DNA of 39,544 nucleotides, taken from NCBI GenBank assembly GCA_030699455.1, contig JAUYMN010000007.1, positions 1 through 39,544 of the forward strand, given 5' to 3'. This document shows positions 3,395 to 39,469 of this stretch, piece after piece; position 1 is the stretch's first letter, and each line of letters opens with the position of its first letter. The position numbers and the translations under genes were made by a program. Under the pieces are notes generated by a model, which did not search any database, was not told the DNA's origin, and worked only from the letters and a program-made list of their open reading frames with translations. This stretch comes from Nanobdellota archaeon (lineage in GTDB: Archaea > Nanobdellota > Nanobdellia > SCGC-AAA011-G17 > UBA489).

Positions 3395-3502
3395 TAAAAG
3401 TTATCTGGGGCGCCATGGAGGGAATTGAAACTAAGCCCTGTTAAGTGAGGGTGAGCGAAGCGAAAGTCTGCAAGACGACTTCAAAATTCCAAGGATTTTG
3501 AG
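3395..3502 (+). repeat. Boundary-element-like intergenic repeat ending GAG|TT
   Basis: This stretch holds GTGAGCGAAGCGAAAG followed by TCTGCAAGACGAC, which recurs almost unchanged in the element at 25768-25875. It ends TTTTGAG|TT, like the other boundary elements in the window. The bases after the junction (TTTTAAGT) recur after the GTAG|TT at 4449/4450, so the small membrane gene pair between them could be a unit of the same kind. No matching inverted arm was found, so this copy is only tentatively placed in the family. The rest of the gap up to 3688 is AT-rich, with a TATA-like sequence (ATATTTATTAA) near 3650-3660. Confidence 0.45.
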
Positions 3503-3688
3503 TTTTAAGTGCAATAATGCAGAAAAAATTATTTTACCCTACCAATAAAAAAATTAAAATTTTTTTCAATAAACAATAAAATGTTTGTTTTACTCACACA
3601 AATTTTTCTGATATTAAATATATTTCTGCAGATTAAAGCCCATAAAAGAAATATTTATTAACTGGTGTGACTTATTATTTTAAGGAAA

Positions 3689-6761: not shown

Positions 6762-6880
6762 TAAGACGGCTCACTTTTTTTATTAACGACAATTTCTACA
6801 TTTTAGGGGTGGGTGGTCGGGGGTATTGAAGTGCCATCTTTACTAACTTTTACATTTCAGTTTTGGCTCACGATTGAGTT

Positions 6881-6945
6881 GAATTTCTGTTATATTCTCG
6901 AATGGAACGAAGTGTAGTGAGGGTGAGCGAACGAAGTGAGGAGAG
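6881..6945 (+). repeat. Boundary element left of the YrdC unit
   Basis: Begins GAATTTCTGTTATATTCTCG, matching the conserved box of the other elements (compare CATAATTCTTGTTATATTCC at 37264 and 39401). It is followed by GGAACGAAGTGTAGTGAGG and GAGCGAACGAAGTGAGGAGAG, and ends at the GAG|TT junction 6945/6946. A unit that would own this element should start with the reverse complement of the bases before it (near 6860-6880); I could not find such a start upstream, so the left-hand unit appears incomplete. Confidence 0.6.
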
Positions 6946-6959
6946 TTCAGAAAAAGCCC
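6946..6959 (+). repeat. Left inverted arm of the YrdC unit
   Basis: TTCAGAAAAAGCCC directly after the GAG|TT junction. It is perfectly complementary to GGGCTTTTTCTGAA at 7685-7698, just before the conserved box of the unit's own right-hand element. The arm touches the stop codon of the YrdC-like gene. Confidence 0.75.
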
Positions 6960-7618
6960 TAAAGTAACTTCATCTTTTTAAGTTCTATGTTAATTTTTTT
7001 AAACAATATTCCTTTCCTAATTATTTTTTTATCTACAATATCAAAAACAGTACTCCCTAGGTTTTTATTAGTTGTTGGGTCTACTGCCCCATATTTTGTT
7101 TTTCCGCAATCAATTATTAAATCAGAACTATTTTTTATTTCCTCTTCAACATCTCTGAGCAAGTAATGATTCCCGTTATTTGAAATGTTTGCGCTAGAAC
7201 CATACACAAGTTTTCCCCTATCCCATAAATATAATGCAATTTCATTACCCAAATTACCCATATTAATAAAAACCCCAATTTTATTCTTTAAAATAAGTTT
7301 AGTGGGCAATTTTTCCATCACTTTTGTTCTTCTTACCTTTCCAATTAACCCAATAGGATAAGGAAAGTTATCAAGAATTTCTGCTTTTTTCATTGAAATT
7401 ATTTCCTTAAAAATTGTATGGTTTCCCAGAACAACACATGGACGCCCAAGAGGTCTTTTTTTCATCCGTATAATCTTTTCTAAGGCATTCTTGGTTGTAC
7501 AGATCAAAGCATATCCCACATCAAATGGAAGTAAAACAATTCCGTCTTTAGTTAACACATCATAAATCTTTTGAACAAGGTTTTTCTCCGTAAAATCTTT
7601 TGTTTTAATCAACTCCAT
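6959..7618 (-). CDS. Divergent Sua5/YciO/YrdC-domain protein
   Basis: A 219-residue YrdC-like domain. The usual family makes threonylcarbamoyl-AMP for the t6A37 modification of tRNA. Family features seen are LPFDVGYALICT near residues 30-41 (the place of PTDTVYGL), the KKRPLGRPCVVL segment near 53-64, SSANISNNG near 141-149, and GSTVFDI near 188-194. The first motif departs from the consensus and a second cofactor-binding region looks shortened, so this may be a specialised carbamoyl-type enzyme or a degenerate paralogue rather than the cell's TsaC. A TATA-like GATTTATTAAATTG lies about 27 nt upstream of the ATG. It is the only gene in a unit bounded by inverted arms and boundary elements. 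Confidence 0.75.
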   Translation of the reverse strand: MELIKTKDFTEKNLVQKIYDVLTKDGIVLLPFDVGYALICTTKNALEKIIRMKKRPLGRPCVVLGNHTIFKEIISMKKAEILDNFPYPIGLIGKVRRTKVMEKLPTKLILKNKIGVFINMGNLGNEIALYLWDRGKLVYGSSANISNNGNHYLLRDVEEEIKNSSDLIIDCGKTKYGAVDPTTNKNLGSTVFDIVDKKIIRKGILFKKINIELKKMKLL

Positions 7619-7684
7619 AATTTAGATACAATCTTTTTCAATTTAATAAATCTTTCTTTTAAAATCTTGTTTGTAGTGTCAGAG

Positions 7685-7783
7685 GGGCTTTTTCTGAATT
7701 TTATATAATTGCTGTTATGTCTGGGTGAACATAGTGAAAGGGTGCAACCCGTCCCCGAGCACCGCAACGAAGTGAGTGAAGAG
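7685..7783 (+). repeat. Boundary element with inverted arm, right of the YrdC unit
   Basis: Opens with the right arm GGGCTTTTTCTGAA (7685-7698), then TATATAATTGCTGTTATGTC, the clearest copy of the conserved box. It continues with GTGAACATAGTGAAAG, GGGTGCAACCC (a hairpin) and CGCAACGAAGTGAGTGAAGAG, and ends at GAG|TT 7783/7784. The unit 6946-7783 is thus 838 bp with one gene and this 99-bp element. Confidence 0.75.
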
Positions 7784-21220: not shown

Positions 21221-21993
21221 AGATGATAGATGATAGCGTATTAGAAAACTCAGTTAATTCCTAATATAGATCGTACAATTCCCGTTGATCCTGCGGGAGG
21301 TCGCTGCTATCGGGATTCGAATTAGGCATGCAAGTCAAGATCTCTTCGGAGGTCGGCGAAAGGCTCAGTAACACGTCGATAATCTGCCCTATGGTCTGGG
21401 ATACGCTCGGGAAACTGAGTATAATACCGGATATGAGAAAGTCACTGGAAAGTTCTTTCTCTGAAAGGTTACGCCATAGGATGAGTCGGCGGCTGATTAG
21501 GCTGTTGGTGAGGTAACGGCTCACCAAACCGATGATCAGTAGGGGGTATGAGAGTACTGTCCTCGAGAAGGGCACTGAGACAAGGGCCCTAGCCCTAAGG
21601 GGTGCAGCAGCCACGAAAACTTTACAATGCGCGAAAGCGCGATAGGGGAATCCCGAGTGCTTGCCTTACGGCAGGCTTTTGTTAAGTGTAAGGAGCTTGA
21701 CGAATAAGTGGTGGGTAATACTGGTGCCAGCCGCCGCGGTAACACCAGAGCCACTAGTGGGGGCCATTTTTATTGGGTCTAAAGCGTCCGTAGCCTGTCT
21801 GAAAAGTCCTTTGTGAAATTGTTCGGCTTAACCGAGCAGCGTGCAAGGGAAACTATCGGACTTGGGACCGGGAGACGATAAGAGTATACCTTGGGGAGCG
21901 GTTAAATGTTTTAATCCTTGGTAGACTACCGATAGCGAAGGCACTTATCGAGAACGGGTCTGACGGTCAGGGACGAAGGCTGGGGGAGCAAAC

Positions 21994-22824
21994 TAGCGCC
22001 AAGATAGCTTTATAAACAAAGAAGTTTAGGGGGTTACATGAGGATTAGACAACTCGTGAAACTTTCATCCTATCTTTTATCCGACGGAGGAATATCACCA
22101 AGAGGCAAAAATTCATACACAATATATTTCAGTAATAACGATGCTTCTTTGGTTGATAATTTTCAGATTCAACTTAAAAAATGTATTCACAAAGAGGGAT
22201 ACAAATCTTTAAGAAAAAATGGATCAACCTTCGTAAAAATACACTCAAAAAATTTAGCTAAGGAATTATTTAAAGTCTCTAAGTCATATAGGACAAAAGC
22301 TTGTAAAAACAATCCAATTTGTCCGCATATAAAAAATAAGAGACCAGCACACATCAATACAATATTGGTTGATGGAATTGAATATCCTGCTGCAGAAATA
22401 CCAGTTGAGTTATTAAAAAAAGATAAAACCCTTGCAAAAGATTTTTTAAGAATATATGCAAGTTGTGATGGAGGAGTTTCAGTTTCAGCTGCAAAAAATA
22501 AAAAAAATTCCATTTTTTTAGTAAGGAAAATTTTTATTGAAGTAGCACATCCTACATTGAAGCAGCAAATTTATACACTGCTCAAACATCTAAAATATAA
22601 CCCTAAGTGTTACAAAACAAGCATAAGATTAACTACAAAAGAAGATTTTATAAAGTTTCATAAAGAGATTGGTTTTATTAAAAAATCAAAAATATCAAAA
22701 CATTCAAAGAATTTTGTTGGTTATGAAAAAAATAAAGTTCTCAAGATGTTAATTGATTCTTATAATAATCCTCAAAATCTCCTAAATTTATTGTTGAAGA
22801 ATTAATCTTGGTCTAGGCTCAGAA
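21994..22824 (+). other. Archaeal-type 16S rRNA intron (about 831 nt)
   Basis: Joining ...GGGGGAGCAAAC to CGGATTAGATACCC restores the archaeal consensus exactly, which sets the boundaries to within one or two bases. The insertion corresponds to about E. coli position 781, a place where 16S introns are known in other archaea. Close to the ends, 21998-22005 can pair with 22805-22812 (eight pairs), and CTAG at 21993-21996 faces CTAG at 22813-22816. This is the stem expected of a bulge-helix-bulge intron cut by the tRNA splicing endonuclease. The exact bulges could not be resolved by eye. Confidence 0.88.
22038..22805 (+). CDS. LAGLIDADG homing endonuclease in the 16S intron
   Basis: A 255-residue protein with two LAGLIDADG motifs: LSSYLLSDGGI near residues 9-19 (Asp16) and FLRIYASCDGGV near 136-147 (Asp144). 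A double-motif monomer of this size fits a homing endonuclease that cuts intron-less 16S genes at the insertion site. The ATG is preceded by AGGGGGTTAC, a possible ribosome site. The stop codon lies at the first pairs of the closing intron stem. Base composition is much richer in A/T than the rRNA around it. The frame is intact, so the intron may still be mobile. Confidence 0.92.
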   Translation: MRIRQLVKLSSYLLSDGGISPRGKNSYTIYFSNNDASLVDNFQIQLKKCIHKEGYKSLRKNGSTFVKIHSKNLAKELFKVSKSYRTKACKNNPICPHIKNKRPAHINTILVDGIEYPAAEIPVELLKKDKTLAKDFLRIYASCDGGVSVSAAKNKKNSIFLVRKIFIEVAHPTLKQQIYTLLKHLKYNPKCYKTSIRLTTKEDFIKFHKEIGFIKKSKISKHSKNFVGYEKNKVLKMLIDSYNNPQNLLNLLLKN

Positions 22825-23749
22825 CGGATTAGATACCCGTGTAGTCCCAGCAGTAAACGCTGCCCATTATGTGTTGCGTATCCCACGAGGGTATGCAGTG
22901 CCGTAGCGAAGGCGTTAAATGGGCCACCTGGGTAGTACGGTCGCAAGACTGAAACTTTAAGGAATTGGCGGGGGAGCACTACAATCGGTGACGCGTGCGG
23001 TTTAATTTAACTCCACACAGAGAATCTCACCAGCAGCGACGGCAGTATGAAGGTCAGATTGAAGGTCTTACCTGACGAGCCGAGAGATGTTGCATGGCCG
23101 CCGTCAGCTCGTGCCGCAAGGTGTCCGGTTAAGTCCGGCAACGAGCAAGACCTGTACTTCTATTTGCTAACGAGTCCTCCGGGATGATCGAGCACAATAG
23201 CGGGACTGCCTTGGTAACAAGGAGGAAGGTGCAGGCAACGGTAGGTCTGTATGACTCGAATCTGCTGGGCTACACGCGCGCGGCAATGTCTAGTACAATT
23301 GGATGCAACTCCGAAAGGAGAAGCTAATCCCCGAAAGCTAGGCCTAGTACAGATTGAGGGTTGTAACTTACCCTCATGACGCTGGAATCGATAGTAATCG
23401 CTTGTCATCAGCAAGCGGTGAATACGTCCCTGTTCCTTGCACACACTGCCCGTCAAATCAACCGAGCAGGGTTTAAGTGAGGGTTGCATTACGGTGCGAT
23501 TCGAACTTAGATTCAGTGAGGTGGGTTAAGTCGTCACAAGGTATCCGTAGGGGAACCTGCGGATGGATCACCTCCTATTTTTTAAAAATGCTGAGAAATC
23601 TTTATGCTGTCAGTCAAAATTGTCATGCCTATGTTTATTTTTGTTTTTCTTTAGAAGAAGAGGCACTCTAAAAATAGTAGGAGTATTATTTTTTCTTCAT
23701 CTTTTCCAATTGATAAAACACCAATCTCCATAGAATCTTCATCAAATAA

Positions 23750-24923: not shown

Positions 24924-24993
24924 AAACTATGAGATAGACATAAGTAATTAAAACTTTTGCCCATTTTAACGTCTTAGTCCCTGAAAATTATAG

Positions 24994-25053
24994 TGTATAA
25001 TTGTTGTTATGCTGGGGGGAGGGAGTGATAGCGACGAAAGCGCAACGTCTCAT
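24994..25053 (+). repeat. Boundary element between hydrolase and DUF3850 unit
   Basis: TGTATAATTGTTGTTATGCTG is a copy of the conserved box, followed by GAGTGATAGCGACGAAAGCGCAACGTCT. Unlike the other copies it ends CAT|TT instead of GAG|TT, and it is shorter at its right end, so it may have lost a few bases. Confidence 0.6.
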
Positions 25054-25055
25054 TT

Positions 25056-25073
25056 AACATTTGTAATTGTGCC
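25056..25073 (+). repeat. Left inverted arm of the DUF3850 unit
   Basis: AACATTTGTAATTGTGCC, perfectly complementary over 18 bases to GGCACAATTACAAATGTT at 25376-25393. The pair encloses exactly one gene with its promoter; the left arm lies three bases after the stop codon. Confidence 0.8.
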
Positions 25074-25076
25074 GTC

Positions 25077-25337
25077 CTACTTGAAAGCTATGATTTGATA
25101 ACCATATTTTTCAACATCTTCTTTTGACCAGAATGTAAAATTTTTAGTTTTGCCAACATAAGTAACTTCTTTTTCAATTTCTCTTCCAGTGTATTCTTTG
25201 GTTTCTGGGTTCCATTCTTGCAAAACTAAAATATCTTCTTCGTTGCATTCCCAATCGGCAAGACGAAGCTCATATGTTTTTTTACCATCAAGTATTTTTT
25301 GAAAATATTCTGGCCAAACTTTTTTTGTGTGTCTCAT
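25077..25337 (-). CDS. DUF3850 / ASCH-like small protein
   Basis: An 86-residue protein, HTKKVWPEYFQKILDGKKTY then ELRLADWECNEEDILVLQEW...TGREIEKEVTYVG. The H-x-K-x-W-P-E-Y-F, GKKTYELR and TGR signatures are those of DUF3850, a branch of the PUA/ASCH-like fold thought to bind RNA or modified bases. The start is taken at the Met before RHTKK because TTTATAAAG (about 25361-25369) lies 25-30 nt upstream; a longer frame to 25382 would run through this TATA box. It is the only gene in a 408-bp cassette-like unit. Confidence 0.78.
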   Translation of the reverse strand: MRHTKKVWPEYFQKILDGKKTYELRLADWECNEEDILVLQEWNPETKEYTGREIEKEVTYVGKTKNFTFWSKEDVEKYGYQIIAFK

Positions 25338-25375
25338 AAAAATATGGTTATCTCTTAACTTTATAAAATTTGCTA

Positions 25376-25461
25376 GGCACAATTACAAATGTTGTATAAT
25401 CTGCTGTTCTGCGTGGTTTTCCGAAGGAAAAAGTGCAACATCCCGAAGGGAAATTTCAGAG
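25376..25461 (+). repeat. Boundary element with inverted arm, right of the DUF3850 unit
   Basis: Opens with the right arm (25376-25393), then GTATAATCTGCTGTTCTGCG (box copy). Two hairpins with GAA loops follow: TTTTCC-GAA-GGAAAA (25417-25431) and TCCC-GAA-GGGA (25441-25451). It ends AAATTTCAGAG|TT at 25461/25462, the same ending as the elements on both sides of recQ. Confidence 0.75.
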
Positions 25462-25476
25462 TTATTTTTTAGCCCC
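25462..25476 (+). repeat. Left inverted arm of the small membrane protein unit
   Basis: TTATTTTTTAGCCCC directly after GAG|TT, complementary over 15 bases to GGGGCTAAAAAATAA at 25768-25782. Here the arm contains the stop codon and last codons of the gene, so the coding sequence has taken over part of the arm. Confidence 0.8.
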
Positions 25477-25722
25477 GTACTTCAACCATAATTTTTTGAA
25501 AAAAGGCAAAGATAATGTTGAGAGAACAAAGCCAGTTGTAGGAACAATAGAGTTGATAAATGGTTTCGGCAATTGAGCCATATAGAAAAATAATACAATT
25601 ACTGCATAAGTTAGAATTGCAATAATTATTTTTCTTGACCAGCTTGTTTCCCAAGCTTTGTCTAATTCAACTTTCTTATTCCTTTGCTCAATTGCGTTAA
25701 GCCTTTTTTCAAAATCACTCAT
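25462..25722 (-). CDS. Small two-helix membrane protein
   Basis: An 86-residue protein. An N-terminal charged helix (SDFEKRLNAIEQRNKKVELD) is followed by KAWETSWSRK and two membrane segments (IIIAILTYAVIVLFFYM and FINSIVPTTGFVLSTLSLPF), ending FKKLWLKYGAKK. The sequence style is that of a widespread small membrane family with the KAWETS motif, which I recall from many CPR bacteria; function is unknown. The TATA-like CTTAATAAAC lies about 27 nt upstream. It is the only gene in the unit 25462-25875. The family link to bacteria, if confirmed, would support transfer between domains. Confidence 0.72.
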   Translation of the reverse strand: MSDFEKRLNAIEQRNKKVELDKAWETSWSRKIIIAILTYAVIVLFFYMAQLPKPFINSIVPTTGFVLSTLSLPFFKKLWLKYGAKK

Positions 25723-25767
25723 AATGAAATTAGATTGGAGATTAAAGTTTATTAAGTTTTCTTTCTA

Positions 25768-25875
25768 GGGGCTAAAAAATAATTGAATATAATCGCTGTT
25801 ATGTCTGGGTGAGCGAATGCGAAAGTCTGCAAGACGACCCCGAGGATTTTTTCTCGTAGAGAAAAAACCGCAGAG
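25768..25875 (+). repeat. Boundary element with inverted arm, right of the membrane-protein unit
   Basis: Right arm GGGGCTAAAAAATAA (25768-25782), then ATATAATCGCTGTTATGTC (box), GTGAGCGAATGCGAAAG and TCTGCAAGACGAC (shared with 3395-3502). A hairpin TTTTTTCTC-GTA-GAGAAAAAA follows, and it ends CGCAGAG|TT at 25875/25876. Confidence 0.75.
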
Positions 25876-26030
25876 TTGTGAGAAGGCACTTTTATTAATT
25901 TTAAAGATGGCACTTCAGGACGGCGGGACGCTGTCTTATTTTATTAGAGATGTGTGCGTCCTCTTTGCTTCTTTATTTCTAAGAAAGAAGAGCGCTCAGA
26001 ATTTTGCTTCTTTTTCCAAAAGAAGATTTT

Positions 26031-28840: not shown

Positions 28841-29065
28841 GTGGTCGGAGGTTTTGAAAAAAATAAGTCTTTGTCCAAGGTATTAAGCAAAAATAAGATA
28901 AAAGAAATAATTAACGTAACCAAGAATATTAAACATAGGTGGATAATAAAGTTTCTGTATTCAACTGGAATCAGACTTCAGGAGTTAATTAATCTTAAGA
29001 GAGAAAATATTGATTTTGACATGAACGTATTATTCTATGCTCTCCAGACATCTGTTAATTTATGA
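28841..29065 (+). pseudogene. Tyrosine recombinase (XerA/integrase family) fragment
   Basis: A 74-codon frame from GTG reads LSKVLSKNKIKEIINVTKNI, KHRWIIKFLYSTGIRLQELI, NLKRENIDFDMN and soon loses similarity. This is the start of the catalytic domain of a tyrosine recombinase: KHR...LYSTGIRLQEL is box I with the catalytic Arg (R45 by this count). The N-terminal core-binding domain, the HxxR box and the Tyr nucleophile are all missing, so the protein cannot be active. The closest style is archaeal XerA-like enzymes. Integron integrases belong to the same superfamily; this fragment lacks the region that would tell them apart. The following 29066-29243 is AT-rich and empty. Confidence 0.75.
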
Positions 29066-37205: not shown

Positions 37206-37332
37206 GAGTCGAACGAAGTGTAATGAGACAAGCGAAGCGAAGAGTTTTGTGTTAGTAAAATTGCACATAATTCTTGTTATATTCCCTGAATGGCTGAAAT
37301 TTAGTGCAACGTCCTGGAGGAAAATTTCAGAG
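37206..37332 (+). repeat. Two boundary elements in tandem with no gene between
   Basis: The first ends GAACGAAGTGTAATGAGAC, AAGCGAAGCGAAGAG|TT at 37244/37245. The second runs 37261-37332 and is identical at 67 of 72 positions to 39398-39469 on the other side of recQ. It has TTGCAC...GTGCAA and CTGAAATTT...AAATTTCAG pairs and ends CAGAG|TT. Between the two lie only 16 bases (TTTTGTGTTAGTAAAA), with TTTT and AAAA as minimal arms: an 88-bp unit without a gene. The rest of 37019-37205 is AT-rich with no gene seen. Confidence 0.7.
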
Positions 37333-37363
37333 TTTGTCCCTCGCAGTTTTTTAGGAAGCCCCC
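37333..37363 (+). repeat. Left inverted arm of the recQ unit
   Basis: TTTGTCCCTCGC (37333-37344) pairs perfectly with GCGAGGGACAAA (39386-39397), and GGAAGCCCCC (37354-37363) with GGGGGCTTCC (39360-39369). Both pairs are in the proper nested order. Beyond the arm a hairpin CTTCTTTTTTTCT-AAAAAAGAAG lies near 37370-37392. Confidence 0.8.
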
Positions 37364-37404
37364 CTTTTGCTTCTTTTTTTCTAAAAAAGAAGACGGGCAG
37401 GACT

Positions 37405-37491
37405 TTAATTTAATCCTTGTTTTCTTAATCTTGAGCTAATTGCATTTGGTTGACGTTTTAAAATTTGAGCAATTTCATTGATAGAAACATT
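37405..37491 (-). pseudogene. Lost helix-turn-helix tail of RecQ behind an in-frame TAG
   Basis: Directly after the TAG stop of recQ (37492-37494) the same frame continues for 28 codons, NVSINEIAQILKRQPNAISS then RLRKQGLN, to TAA. This is a typical small DNA-binding tail (S-I-x-E-I-A...R...A-I-x-S-R-L-x-K) found after the HRDC domain in related helicases. A single base change (for example from AAG or GAG) explains the break. Confidence 0.65.
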
Positions 37492-39141
37492 CTAGAGATA
37501 TAATTTTTTTAATTTGTTATCTTCTTCTCCCCCCCAAGGTTCATAAGCATTTCGATATTTCTCTTTGATTTGTTCTAATCTTTCATGATAATTAGTTTTC
37601 ATATTATTTTTAACAGAATCTTTTTTTTGACTTCTCCTAATATTTCTTTCAGGAACAATGTTGTTTTCTCTTACATAATCATTTATTATTTTCAAAAAAG
37701 ATTCTCCAAAATCCTTTAATTTTTGTTGTCCAACACCATTAATTCTCAAGAATTCATGTTCATTTTTTGGAAAGTAGGACGACATTTCCCTCAAAGAAAC
37801 ATCCCCAAATATAATGAAGGGGGGAACGTTTCTTTCATCAGCAATTTGTTTTCTTAGAGTTCGAAGTTTTTCAAATAAGTTTTTATCATAAGTAATTTTC
37901 TCTTTTACATCTTCAAGAATTAAACTCTTATCTCTAATATCAACTTTTATCTCTGGAATATTTAAGCAAACGTCACATCCACTACAATTATTTTCTGGAA
38001 AAGATTCTCCAAAATATCCTAAGATGTCTTTTCTTCTACATGAGGTATTTTCGCAGTATATCATCATTTTATTCAATTTATCTAATGCACTACTTCTAAT
38101 TGTATCTTCTTGAATTTGGTCAATAAAAAACTCGTGCTTTCTTTTATCTCCTTTTGAATAAAACAAAACACAATCACTTGAAAGCCCATCTCGTCCAGCT
38201 CTCCCTATCTCTTGATAATATCCTTCTATTGATTTTGAGAAAGTATGGTGAATTATTAATCTAACATCAGGTTTATCTATTCCCATACCAAAAGCAATTG
38301 TAGCTACAATAATATTTATTTGGTCTTTAGTAAATAACTCTTGATTTTGTTTTCTTATATTATTAGGAAGTCCAGCATGGTAGGGGAGAGCTTTAAGTCC
38401 ATTTTCTTTTAATTGCCGAGCAATATTCTCTGTATCTTTACGAGAAAAGCAATAAATAATAATAGATTCATTTTTATGTCTTTTAATCAAGCTCAAGATT
38501 TTATTGAAAGTATTCTTTTTTTGAGTTACTATTAGATTCAGATTTTTTCTGTTAAAACTAGAAATAAAAATTTGTGGATTTACTAAAGATAACTGTTTTA
38601 CAATATCTTCCCTTACTTTTAATGTTGCTGTTGCAGTTAAGGCAATTACTGGAGTGTTTGGAAAAAGTTTTTTTAAAAACTTTAAATTTCTGTAATCCGG
38701 TCTAAAATCATGTCCCCATTCCGAAATACAATGTGCCTCATCAATTGCGATTAAGCTTATCTGAAGCGTTGTTAAAAATATTTTAAACTCTTCCAGTGCC
38801 AATCTTTCTGGAGCAATATACAGAATTTTAACTTCCTTTTCTTGAATTTTTTTCTTAATGTTCTCAATTTCATTAAAAGAAAGAGTGGAGTTGATGTATT
38901 CTGCACTTATTCCATTTGTTTTTAAATTGTCTACTTGGTCTTTCATCAAAGAAATAAGTGGTGAAATTACAATTGTCAATCCTTCAAGTTTAAGAGCTGG
39001 AATTTGATAACAAAGCGATTTTCCTCCTCCTGTAGGCATTAAAACAAGCGAATCTTTTTTTTGAAGAGCATTGTTAATAATATCTAATTGCATAGGTCTA
39101 AATTCTTCATACCCAAAATATTTTTTTAATAATAATTCCAT
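37492..39141 (-). CDS. recQ: RecQ-family ATP-dependent DNA helicase
   Basis: A 549-residue 3'-5' helicase for repair and recombination. Q motif and Walker A: FGYEEFRPMQ and LMPTGGGKSLCYQ (34-46); DEAH box at 134-137 with the RecQ aromatic loop HCISEWGHDFRPDY; motif VI QEIGRAGRDG. A zinc-binding region has four Cys (YCENTSC...CSGCDVC). The winged-helix RQC part is shortened and followed by an HRDC domain near 425-500. The protein ends at TAG within what looks like a further DNA-binding tail. RecQ is rare in archaea and common in bacteria, which points to transfer. It is the only gene in the largest cassette-like unit; a TATA-like region lies 30-50 nt upstream. Confidence 0.93.
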   Translation of the reverse strand: MELLLKKYFGYEEFRPMQLDIINNALQKKDSLVLMPTGGGKSLCYQIPALKLEGLTIVISPLISLMKDQVDNLKTNGISAEYINSTLSFNEIENIKKKIQEKEVKILYIAPERLALEEFKIFLTTLQISLIAIDEAHCISEWGHDFRPDYRNLKFLKKLFPNTPVIALTATATLKVREDIVKQLSLVNPQIFISSFNRKNLNLIVTQKKNTFNKILSLIKRHKNESIIIYCFSRKDTENIARQLKENGLKALPYHAGLPNNIRKQNQELFTKDQINIIVATIAFGMGIDKPDVRLIIHHTFSKSIEGYYQEIGRAGRDGLSSDCVLFYSKGDKRKHEFFIDQIQEDTIRSSALDKLNKMMIYCENTSCRRKDILGYFGESFPENNCSGCDVCLNIPEIKVDIRDKSLILEDVKEKITYDKNLFEKLRTLRKQIADERNVPPFIIFGDVSLREMSSYFPKNEHEFLRINGVGQQKLKDFGESFLKIINDYVRENNIVPERNIRRSQKKDSVKNNMKTNYHERLEQIKEKYRNAYEPWGGEEDNKLKKLYL

Positions 39142-39385
39142 TTTTTATGTTTGCTCTTGATTATAATAAAATTATGCGGGTATAGATATAAAGTTTTTGT
39201 TGTTTTCGTCATGCCCAAATAAATAGAAAAATTTTGGTGAGTGATAACGAACCTCTTAACCGTTGTTAGACGAAATTTTTAATTTCATTGTGGGTTTCGC
39301 TGGTCGGTTAAGAGAAGTTTTTCTGCGAGGCAAAGCCGAGACTATCTTTCCGAAGGACTGGGGGCTTCCGTTTTTTAGTAAATTA
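39142..39385. other. Promoter side of the recQ unit with a long inverted repeat
   Basis: No gene is seen. Next to the AT-rich promoter, CTCTTAACCG (39253-39262) pairs with CGGTTAAGAG (39305-39314). Inside the loop GTTAGAC occurs, which fits the GTTRRRY core of classical integron sites, though its partner is not clear. The second part of the right arm (39360-39369) is also here. Confidence 0.45.
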
Positions 39386-39469
39386 GCGAGGGACAAATTG
39401 CACATAATTCTTGTTATATTCCCTGTAGGGCTGAAATTTAGTGCAACGTTCCGAAGGAAAATTTCAGAG
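39386..39469 (+). repeat. Boundary element with inverted arm, right of the recQ unit
   Basis: Arm GCGAGGGACAAA (39386-39397) followed by 72 bases almost identical to those left of recQ, including CATAATTCTTGTTATATTCC. The hairpin TTCC-GAA-GGAA (39449-39459) sits inside the larger stem CTGAAATTT/AAATTTCAG. It ends CAGAG|TT at 39469/39470. A next unit begins TTGAGAAAAAGACCGTTCC and runs out of the window; it contains GTAC-GAA-GTAC (39494-39504). Confidence 0.75.

Follow-up and report, generated by a model that had tools for sequence, protein, structure and literature searches.

Adjacent gene cassettes in a DPANN archaeon suggest an integron-like platform served by an XerA-like recombinase

Two neighboring units in the genome of a Nanobdellota archaeon, one with a DUF3850 gene and the other with a membrane-protein gene, are best explained as gene cassettes that lie side by side in an integron-like platform of DPANN archaea, which would be run by a dedicated XerA-like tyrosine recombinase; we put the probability of this reading at roughly 80%. 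Both the type of recombinase and the build of the DNA ends appear to differ from those of all integrons described to date, and in the open-access literature we found no published description of integrons in Woesearchaeota or Pacearchaeota, or of XerA cassette systems. The units lie on contig JAUYMN010000007.1 of assembly GCA_030699455.1 (positions 1–39,544, forward strand), a single 39.5-kb contig (C4) of a 770-kb DPANN draft genome that is 83% complete; this whole stretch of 39,544 nt is referred to as the window. Every genome behind the analysis is metagenome-assembled.

The two cassettes and their surroundings

The units are delimited by dif-like core sites, and all sites in the window are on the plus strand. 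Core site 1 (24993–25014) has a left half ending in TATAA, the 6-nt center TTGTTG (25001–25006), and the right half TTATGCTG (HMM match 24990–25051, E = 1e-5). Core site 2 (25392–25414) has a left half ending in GTATAA, a 7-nt center, TCTGCTG (25400–25406), and a degenerate right half, TTCTGCGT, without TTA (HMM match 25394–25467). Core site 3 (25785–25806) reads GAATATAA-TCGCTG-TTATGTCT. Limits taken from these cores place cassette 1 at 25007–25406 (400 bp) and cassette 2 at 25407–25798 (392 bp), both in plus orientation with the gene on the minus strand. The crossover for cassette 1 is inferred from half-site statistics (see below), and the limits of cassette 2 also draw on homology with G018:C66.

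The gene of cassette 1 (25077–25337) encodes an 86-aa DUF3850/ASCH-like protein, an assignment already made in the initial annotation and borne out by a match to Pfam family PF12961 (65.3 bits). Cassette 2 carries a gene for a small membrane protein, also of 86 aa (25462–25722), which has homologues but no match in Pfam or NCBIfam. Each cassette has its own pair of complementary arms: AACATTTGTAATTGTGCC (25056–25073) and GGCACAATTACAAATGTT (25376–25393) in cassette 1, complementary at 18 of 18 positions, and TTATTTTTTAGCCCC (25462–25476) and GGGGCTAAAAAATAA (25768–25782) in cassette 2, 15 nt long, 100% complementary, and both identical in locus L013. As first noted from the letters, the stop codon of the second gene (25462–25464, minus strand) lies inside the arm. 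The body of cassette 2 (25407–25461, plus strand) consists of hairpin 1 (TTTTCCGAAGGAAAA), the conserved AGTGCAAC (25432–25439), a remnant of hairpin 2, and AG at the arm. A third cassette body (25799–25875, plus strand) begins right of core site 3; an arm search found no right arm for it in the window, and this cassette is truncated or decayed.

The initial annotation had described two tandem single-gene units around a common boundary element, each with perfect arms that differ from those of its neighbor, and this description stands. Its limits do not: the units of 408 and 414 bp each extended from the first arm through the second and included the right-hand element, and we moved the limits away from the arm edges because the exchange point sits within the dif-like core of each element. 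The junction once placed at 25461/25462 is an outer arm edge, and the cassette boundary is 25406/25407.

None of 20 first-order Markov shuffles of the window gave an 18-nt arm pair, and pairs of at least 15 nt occurred on average 0.75 times per shuffled window. Both arm pairs (18 and 15 nt) are placed exactly at the edges of shared elements, as are those of two more units in the window. Further cassettes in plus orientation carry a Sua5/YrdC-like gene (cassette 6890–7714; gene 6959–7618, minus strand; 14-nt arms 6946–6959/7685–7698) and a RecQ-like helicase gene (cassette 37277–39413; gene 37492–39141, minus strand; 12-nt arms 37333–37344/39386–39397). The window also contains a lone element of the same type (3424–3517, plus strand, TAA-GCCCTG-TTAAGTGA) and a truncated tyrosine recombinase fragment (28841–29065, plus strand; PF00589, 37 bits).

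Because their half-sites match poorly (TTATGCTG vs. TTATACAA in cassette 1, TTCTGCGT vs. TTATATTC in cassette 2), cassettes 1 and 2 may be remnants that no longer move. The array in this stretch is probably in decay, given the degenerate half-sites, the 7-nt center of core site 2, the third cassette without a right arm, and a recombinase present nearby only as a fragment.

A second perfect inverted repeat is nested inside each cassette, one of 15 nt in cassette 1 (25097–25111/25338–25352), in exact register with the outer arms, and one of 14 nt in cassette 2 (25494–25507/25701–25714). The 15-mer TGAAGTGCCATCTTT occurs beside cassette elements at 6827–6841 and 25903–25917, on opposite strands, and a GGGTGGTCGGGGG motif lies close to one of the copies. 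Since these copies adjoin elements and similar text is found in L048, L053, and L080, some cassettes may have a terminal module in common. The archaeal 16S rRNA gene of the window (21278–23576) contains an intron of about 0.8 kb (21993–22820) that encodes a LAGLIDADG protein (22038–22805); the 16S genes of G002, G003, and G006 are uninterrupted at this position.

Cassette ends and the point of exchange

A cassette opens with a start half-site (TTAxxxxx), followed by two hairpins around the conserved AGTGCAACG and an arm specific to that cassette; then come the gene (usually one), a second arm complementary to the first, and the opposite half-site (xxxxxTAA) with the 6-nt center. At each core within an array (xxxxxTAA-N6-TTAxxxxx), the end half-site of a cassette meets the start half-site of the following cassette. 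The two half-sites of a cassette match at a mean of 3.43 of 5 variable positions, with 35% perfect (n = 49) compared to 5% of random pairs, whereas agreement between the two halves of one array site is at chance level (2.12 of 5, vs. 2.10 for random pairs). Because half-sites covary within the cassette (permutation p < 0.0002) and not within the array site, we place the exchange inside the 6-nt center, where the recombinase would exchange strands. Arms, too, are complementary inside their own cassette and specific to it: perfect pairing over at least 13 nt was found for 17 of 54 pairs of neighboring elements, vs. 11 of 9210 mismatched pairs. Covariation was scored from matched and mismatched pairs, as a MAFFT alignment of the joined ends places the arms badly.

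Homologous cassettes in L042, L048, and L079 (twice) keep the left hairpin 2 and cease to resemble one another at a few to about 24 nt from the right arm. Assigning the element on the right (plus) to the gene was discarded, as in these cassettes it is left hairpin 2 that stays with the gene. An exchange at the arm edge AA|TTG, which we favored initially, was dropped as well: the halves flanking N6 belong to different cassettes, and element types such as TTATATTCCCCGAAGGGCTGAAATTT... are found behind differing 15-nt left parts, from which they assort independently. The hairpin-1 segment varies even between close homologous cassettes (window and G018; L048 and L079), and these differences mark a second apparent breakpoint at AGYGCAACG, of which the model gives no account. 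Site orientation is constant within arrays of several genomes. Gene orientation inside cassettes is mixed (16 antisense, 14 sense), and on this count the rule that genes face away from the recombinase was discarded. Conserved terminal regions of about 95 and 160 bp enclose different genes in L042 (962–1508), L048 (568–1330), and L079 (9304–10054 and 14885–15560), as if genes had been swapped within one cassette frame.

Joining the two ends of a cassette, as in a circle, gives a sequence that folds into four parts around a four-way junction: an arm stem, a half-site hairpin whose loop is N6, hairpin 1, and hairpin 2. This fold is cleanest in L043, L044, L046, and L136 (−24 to −32 kcal/mol with DNA parameters). 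Halves of hairpin 2 match over at least 7 nt in 50% of cases within an element, against 8% when taken from different elements, and the folds of element bodies are more stable than those of dinucleotide shuffles (median z = −1.5). In homologous cassettes of L042 and L048, the arms TTCTGGGCTTGCC and TTCGGGGCTCGCC each have perfect partners, which amounts to two compensatory double changes. In IMEX such as the CTX phage, the single-stranded genome folds into a dif-like site for a Xer enzyme. The four-way fold of the joined cassette ends may be a preferred or regulatory substrate of the recombinase, which would explain the covariation of half-sites and arms; this covariation could also come from the manufacture of cassettes or from conversion between arms, rather than from selection for a folded substrate.

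The recombinase and the distribution of cassettes

The draft genome encodes XerA on C14 and, on C28, a second enzyme of 271 aa that is 38% identical to XerA and lies 1 kb from an element. About 28 of 103 genomes encode relatives of the C28 enzyme (about 50–60% identity). Array-type recombinases (10 rows, element in the same locus) are split from an XerA set (10 rows) by a branch with 99/95 support. Six of 30 array-type recombinase genes have an element within 1.5 kb (E < 0.001), always upstream and on the same strand, whereas the 15 genes for XerA or other recombinases have none; most array-type loci have no significant element within that distance, for which short contigs or divergent sites may account.

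About 130–200 nt upstream of the recombinase is an attI-like core, with an outer half of cassette type and a conserved recombinase-side half (TTTAACGAA, ATATACGAA). A strict pattern for this site, built on the same data, matches 10 of 28 array-type loci, vs. one spurious match in 16 others. Its flank is conserved between C28 and C24 of the draft genome (91% over 114 nt), and in relatives the array terminates at the attI-like site upstream of the recombinase gene. Cassettes would be cut out as circles and then inserted either at this site or between other cassettes. An array-type recombinase split into two frames adjoins an intact element in L086/L038 (1886–2777), from its reading frames apparently a dead integrase with a surviving array.

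Compared with IntI 2A3V, the array-type enzyme aligns as two blocks, with 12 residues replacing 56 (182–237), and the spacing from GKGxKDR to LRHSFAT is 65–69 residues in 26 array-type enzymes, 67–69 in XerA, and about 110 in 2A3V. The array-type enzyme scores 197 bits with the IntI model TIGR02249, below its cut-off of 265. With the XerA model NF040815 (cut-off 220), the enzyme of the draft genome scores 223 bits and that of G018 scores 214.

We searched 257 Gb of GTDB genomes with a pattern drawn from the element (TATAATNNCTGTTA, 14–44 nt, AGYGCAACG), which matched 18 stretches. Those with full anatomy belong to Woesearchaeota, Pacearchaeota, and other DPANN bins. The sole exception is a 3.5-kb contig binned as Lokiarchaeota (L043, JAEORV010000350.1), which bears clear cassettes and represents either mis-binning or transfer out of DPANN. 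A match in Omnitrophota (L045) was rejected as chance, as were four in viral contigs, none with the anatomy. Within the same order, a similar, slightly looser pattern matches 10 of 103 genomes, across families (a few of the matches being chance), and an iterated profile recovers about 90 elements among the collected loci (94 at E < 0.02). Cassette genes are diverse and include those for a ParE-like toxin, GTP cyclohydrolase II, HisG, a hydrolase, a methyltransferase, and a nucleotidyltransferase.

Cassette 2 recurs with identical arms in G018, from another family of the order (87% at the amino acid level), and is absent from eight genomes of the same genus or family. Homology to G018:C66 begins at 25432 and spans 25432–25801 (87%), its limits falling exactly at AGTGCAAC and CTGTTA. 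Distant homologues of the membrane-protein gene (48–68%) have no arms. A 79% homologue of the DUF3850 gene, without arms, is present in the same-genus genome G002, where DNA similarity corresponds to 25078–25371 of the window and ends within about 5 nt of both arms. L153 (G064:C21, about 1498–1755) may hold a divergent cassette type: its DUF3850 homologue (77% aa) sits between the copies of another inverted repeat, near-perfect and 20 nt long (TTAAAAACCTTGTTCTATGA). G002 lacks, at the syntenic position, a 4.7-kb cassette-bearing block of C24; no simple empty site for the window cassettes was found in the genus, where the region is rearranged.

The initial annotation had argued for an array rather than independent transpositions, which is now strongly supported: neighbors have elements in common and these all point one way, every cassette has arms of its own, one cassette reappears in another family with its arms unchanged, and relatives have a recombinase and attI-like site at the array end. 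It also named what would speak against it, namely the two genes occurring together without the elements, or arms not kept with a gene elsewhere. The outcome is mixed and does not refute it. No case of both genes together without elements was found; the arms are kept with the close homologue of the membrane-protein gene in G018 and not around its distant homologues, and no DUF3850 gene elsewhere has them, as expected if a chromosomal gene was captured here.

Alternative explanations and significance

The units could instead be double-stranded dif modules, in which the chromosomal XerA or a paralogue would recombine dif-like sites in duplex form, in the manner of Acinetobacter, with arms and hairpins as accessory or host-factor features and no use of single-strand folding. 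We think this unlikely, although the core TAA-N6-TTA equals the geometry of the P. abyssi dif (ATATAA-TCGGCC-TTATAT), the recombinase is XerA-like, and Xer enzymes act on duplex DNA. Duplex recognition leaves the covariation of a cassette's two half-sites and arms without explanation. The dif modules of Acinetobacter plasmids (PMC6449649, PMC13141974) likewise have Xer-type sites with 6-nt spacers on either side of their genes, and neighboring modules have sites in common, but theirs are inversely oriented, conserved pdif sites used by host XerCD, whereas DPANN sites have one direct orientation per array and variable halves, and a dedicated recombinase and attI-like site belong to the system. 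Archaeal XerA/dif (Cortez et al., 2010, PMC2958812) shares the enzyme superfamily, the NF040815 model, and the TAA-N6-TTA core; in place of a single conserved 28-bp dif near the terminus, the DPANN system has many sites per genome, on several contigs, with variable, cassette-specific half-sites and a separate recombinase group.

A canonical archaeal integron remnant (CALIN), with IntI-driven cassettes and ordinary attC hairpins, is improbable. Such cassettes have been reported for 75 archaeal genomes, and canonical attCs have been reported from Nanoarchaeota (PMC9668308). The array logic, the cassette-specific complementary ends, and the attI-like site would fit, and the exchange point G^TTA resembles the G^TT of R'. 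However, recombinases beside the arrays lack the IntI insertion and fall below the TIGR02249 cut-off, and there is no IntI among the three PF00589 matches of the 83% complete genome. Only 6 nt separate the equivalents of R'' and R', which come from different cassettes, with the hairpin body outside rather than between R boxes as in an R''-L''-stem-L'-R' hairpin. The attC-like part of the initial annotation is not supported: the conserved core is a compact dif-like site with the hairpin body beside it, and the recombinase is an XerA-like enzyme without I2. With integrons (archaeal ones in Ghaly et al., 2022, PMC9668308), which use IntI, attI, and attC, the DPANN system shares arrays of mostly single-gene cassettes, a recombinase beside the end attachment site, cassette ends complementary within the cassette (p < 0.0002 here), and exchange at G^TT(A); it differs in its enzyme, in having 6 nt between the halves of its core, and in the 12–18 nt arms that flank the cassette gene.

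It is very improbable that the elements are promoter or terminator hairpins between ordinary genes. Some elements have a TATA-like ATTATA at their edge, on the minus strand, and the arms could pair in mRNA, but element orientation is constant while gene orientation is mixed, and the half-site statistics and cross-family cassette identity would be unexpected. A promoter reading of TATAAT(N3)TGTT alone was discarded as too frequent by chance. Least probable are transposons or MITEs inserted side by side, as the perfect inverted repeats that flank a gene differ among units and pair only inside a unit, with no constant terminal repeat, and neighbors have common boundaries in arrays of conserved orientation.

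Judged by its genes and sites, the cassette system is integron-like in its working yet falls outside integrons as defined by IntI and attC, because its recombinase is XerA-like without the integron-specific I2 insertion. The odds seem about even that it is a second, independently evolved kind of integron, in which cassettes are captured by an I2-less, XerA-derived recombinase and their ends, once joined, form a four-way single-stranded structure with cassette-specific arms; capture and recognition of folded DNA would then have arisen at least twice. IMEX elements such as the CTX phage (PMC7790495) are alike in that single-stranded DNA can fold to offer a Xer enzyme a dif-like site, and differ in that DPANN cassettes have no phage genes and follow one another in series, many different ones to an array.

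An I2 helix is considered necessary for cassette capture and single-strand recombination, with causality unproven (PMC7790495), and an I2-less Xer-type cassette platform with covariation for folded ends makes that necessity testable. The system also bears on the origin of gene cassettes, since arms mark both ends of captured genes: for the DUF3850 cassette, the similarity of an armless chromosomal homologue from the same genus halts a few bases from the arms, which bears on how cassettes are made. If the reading is true, genome-reduced DPANN archaea would have a gene-exchange system that lies outside the design of tools based on attC and IntI.
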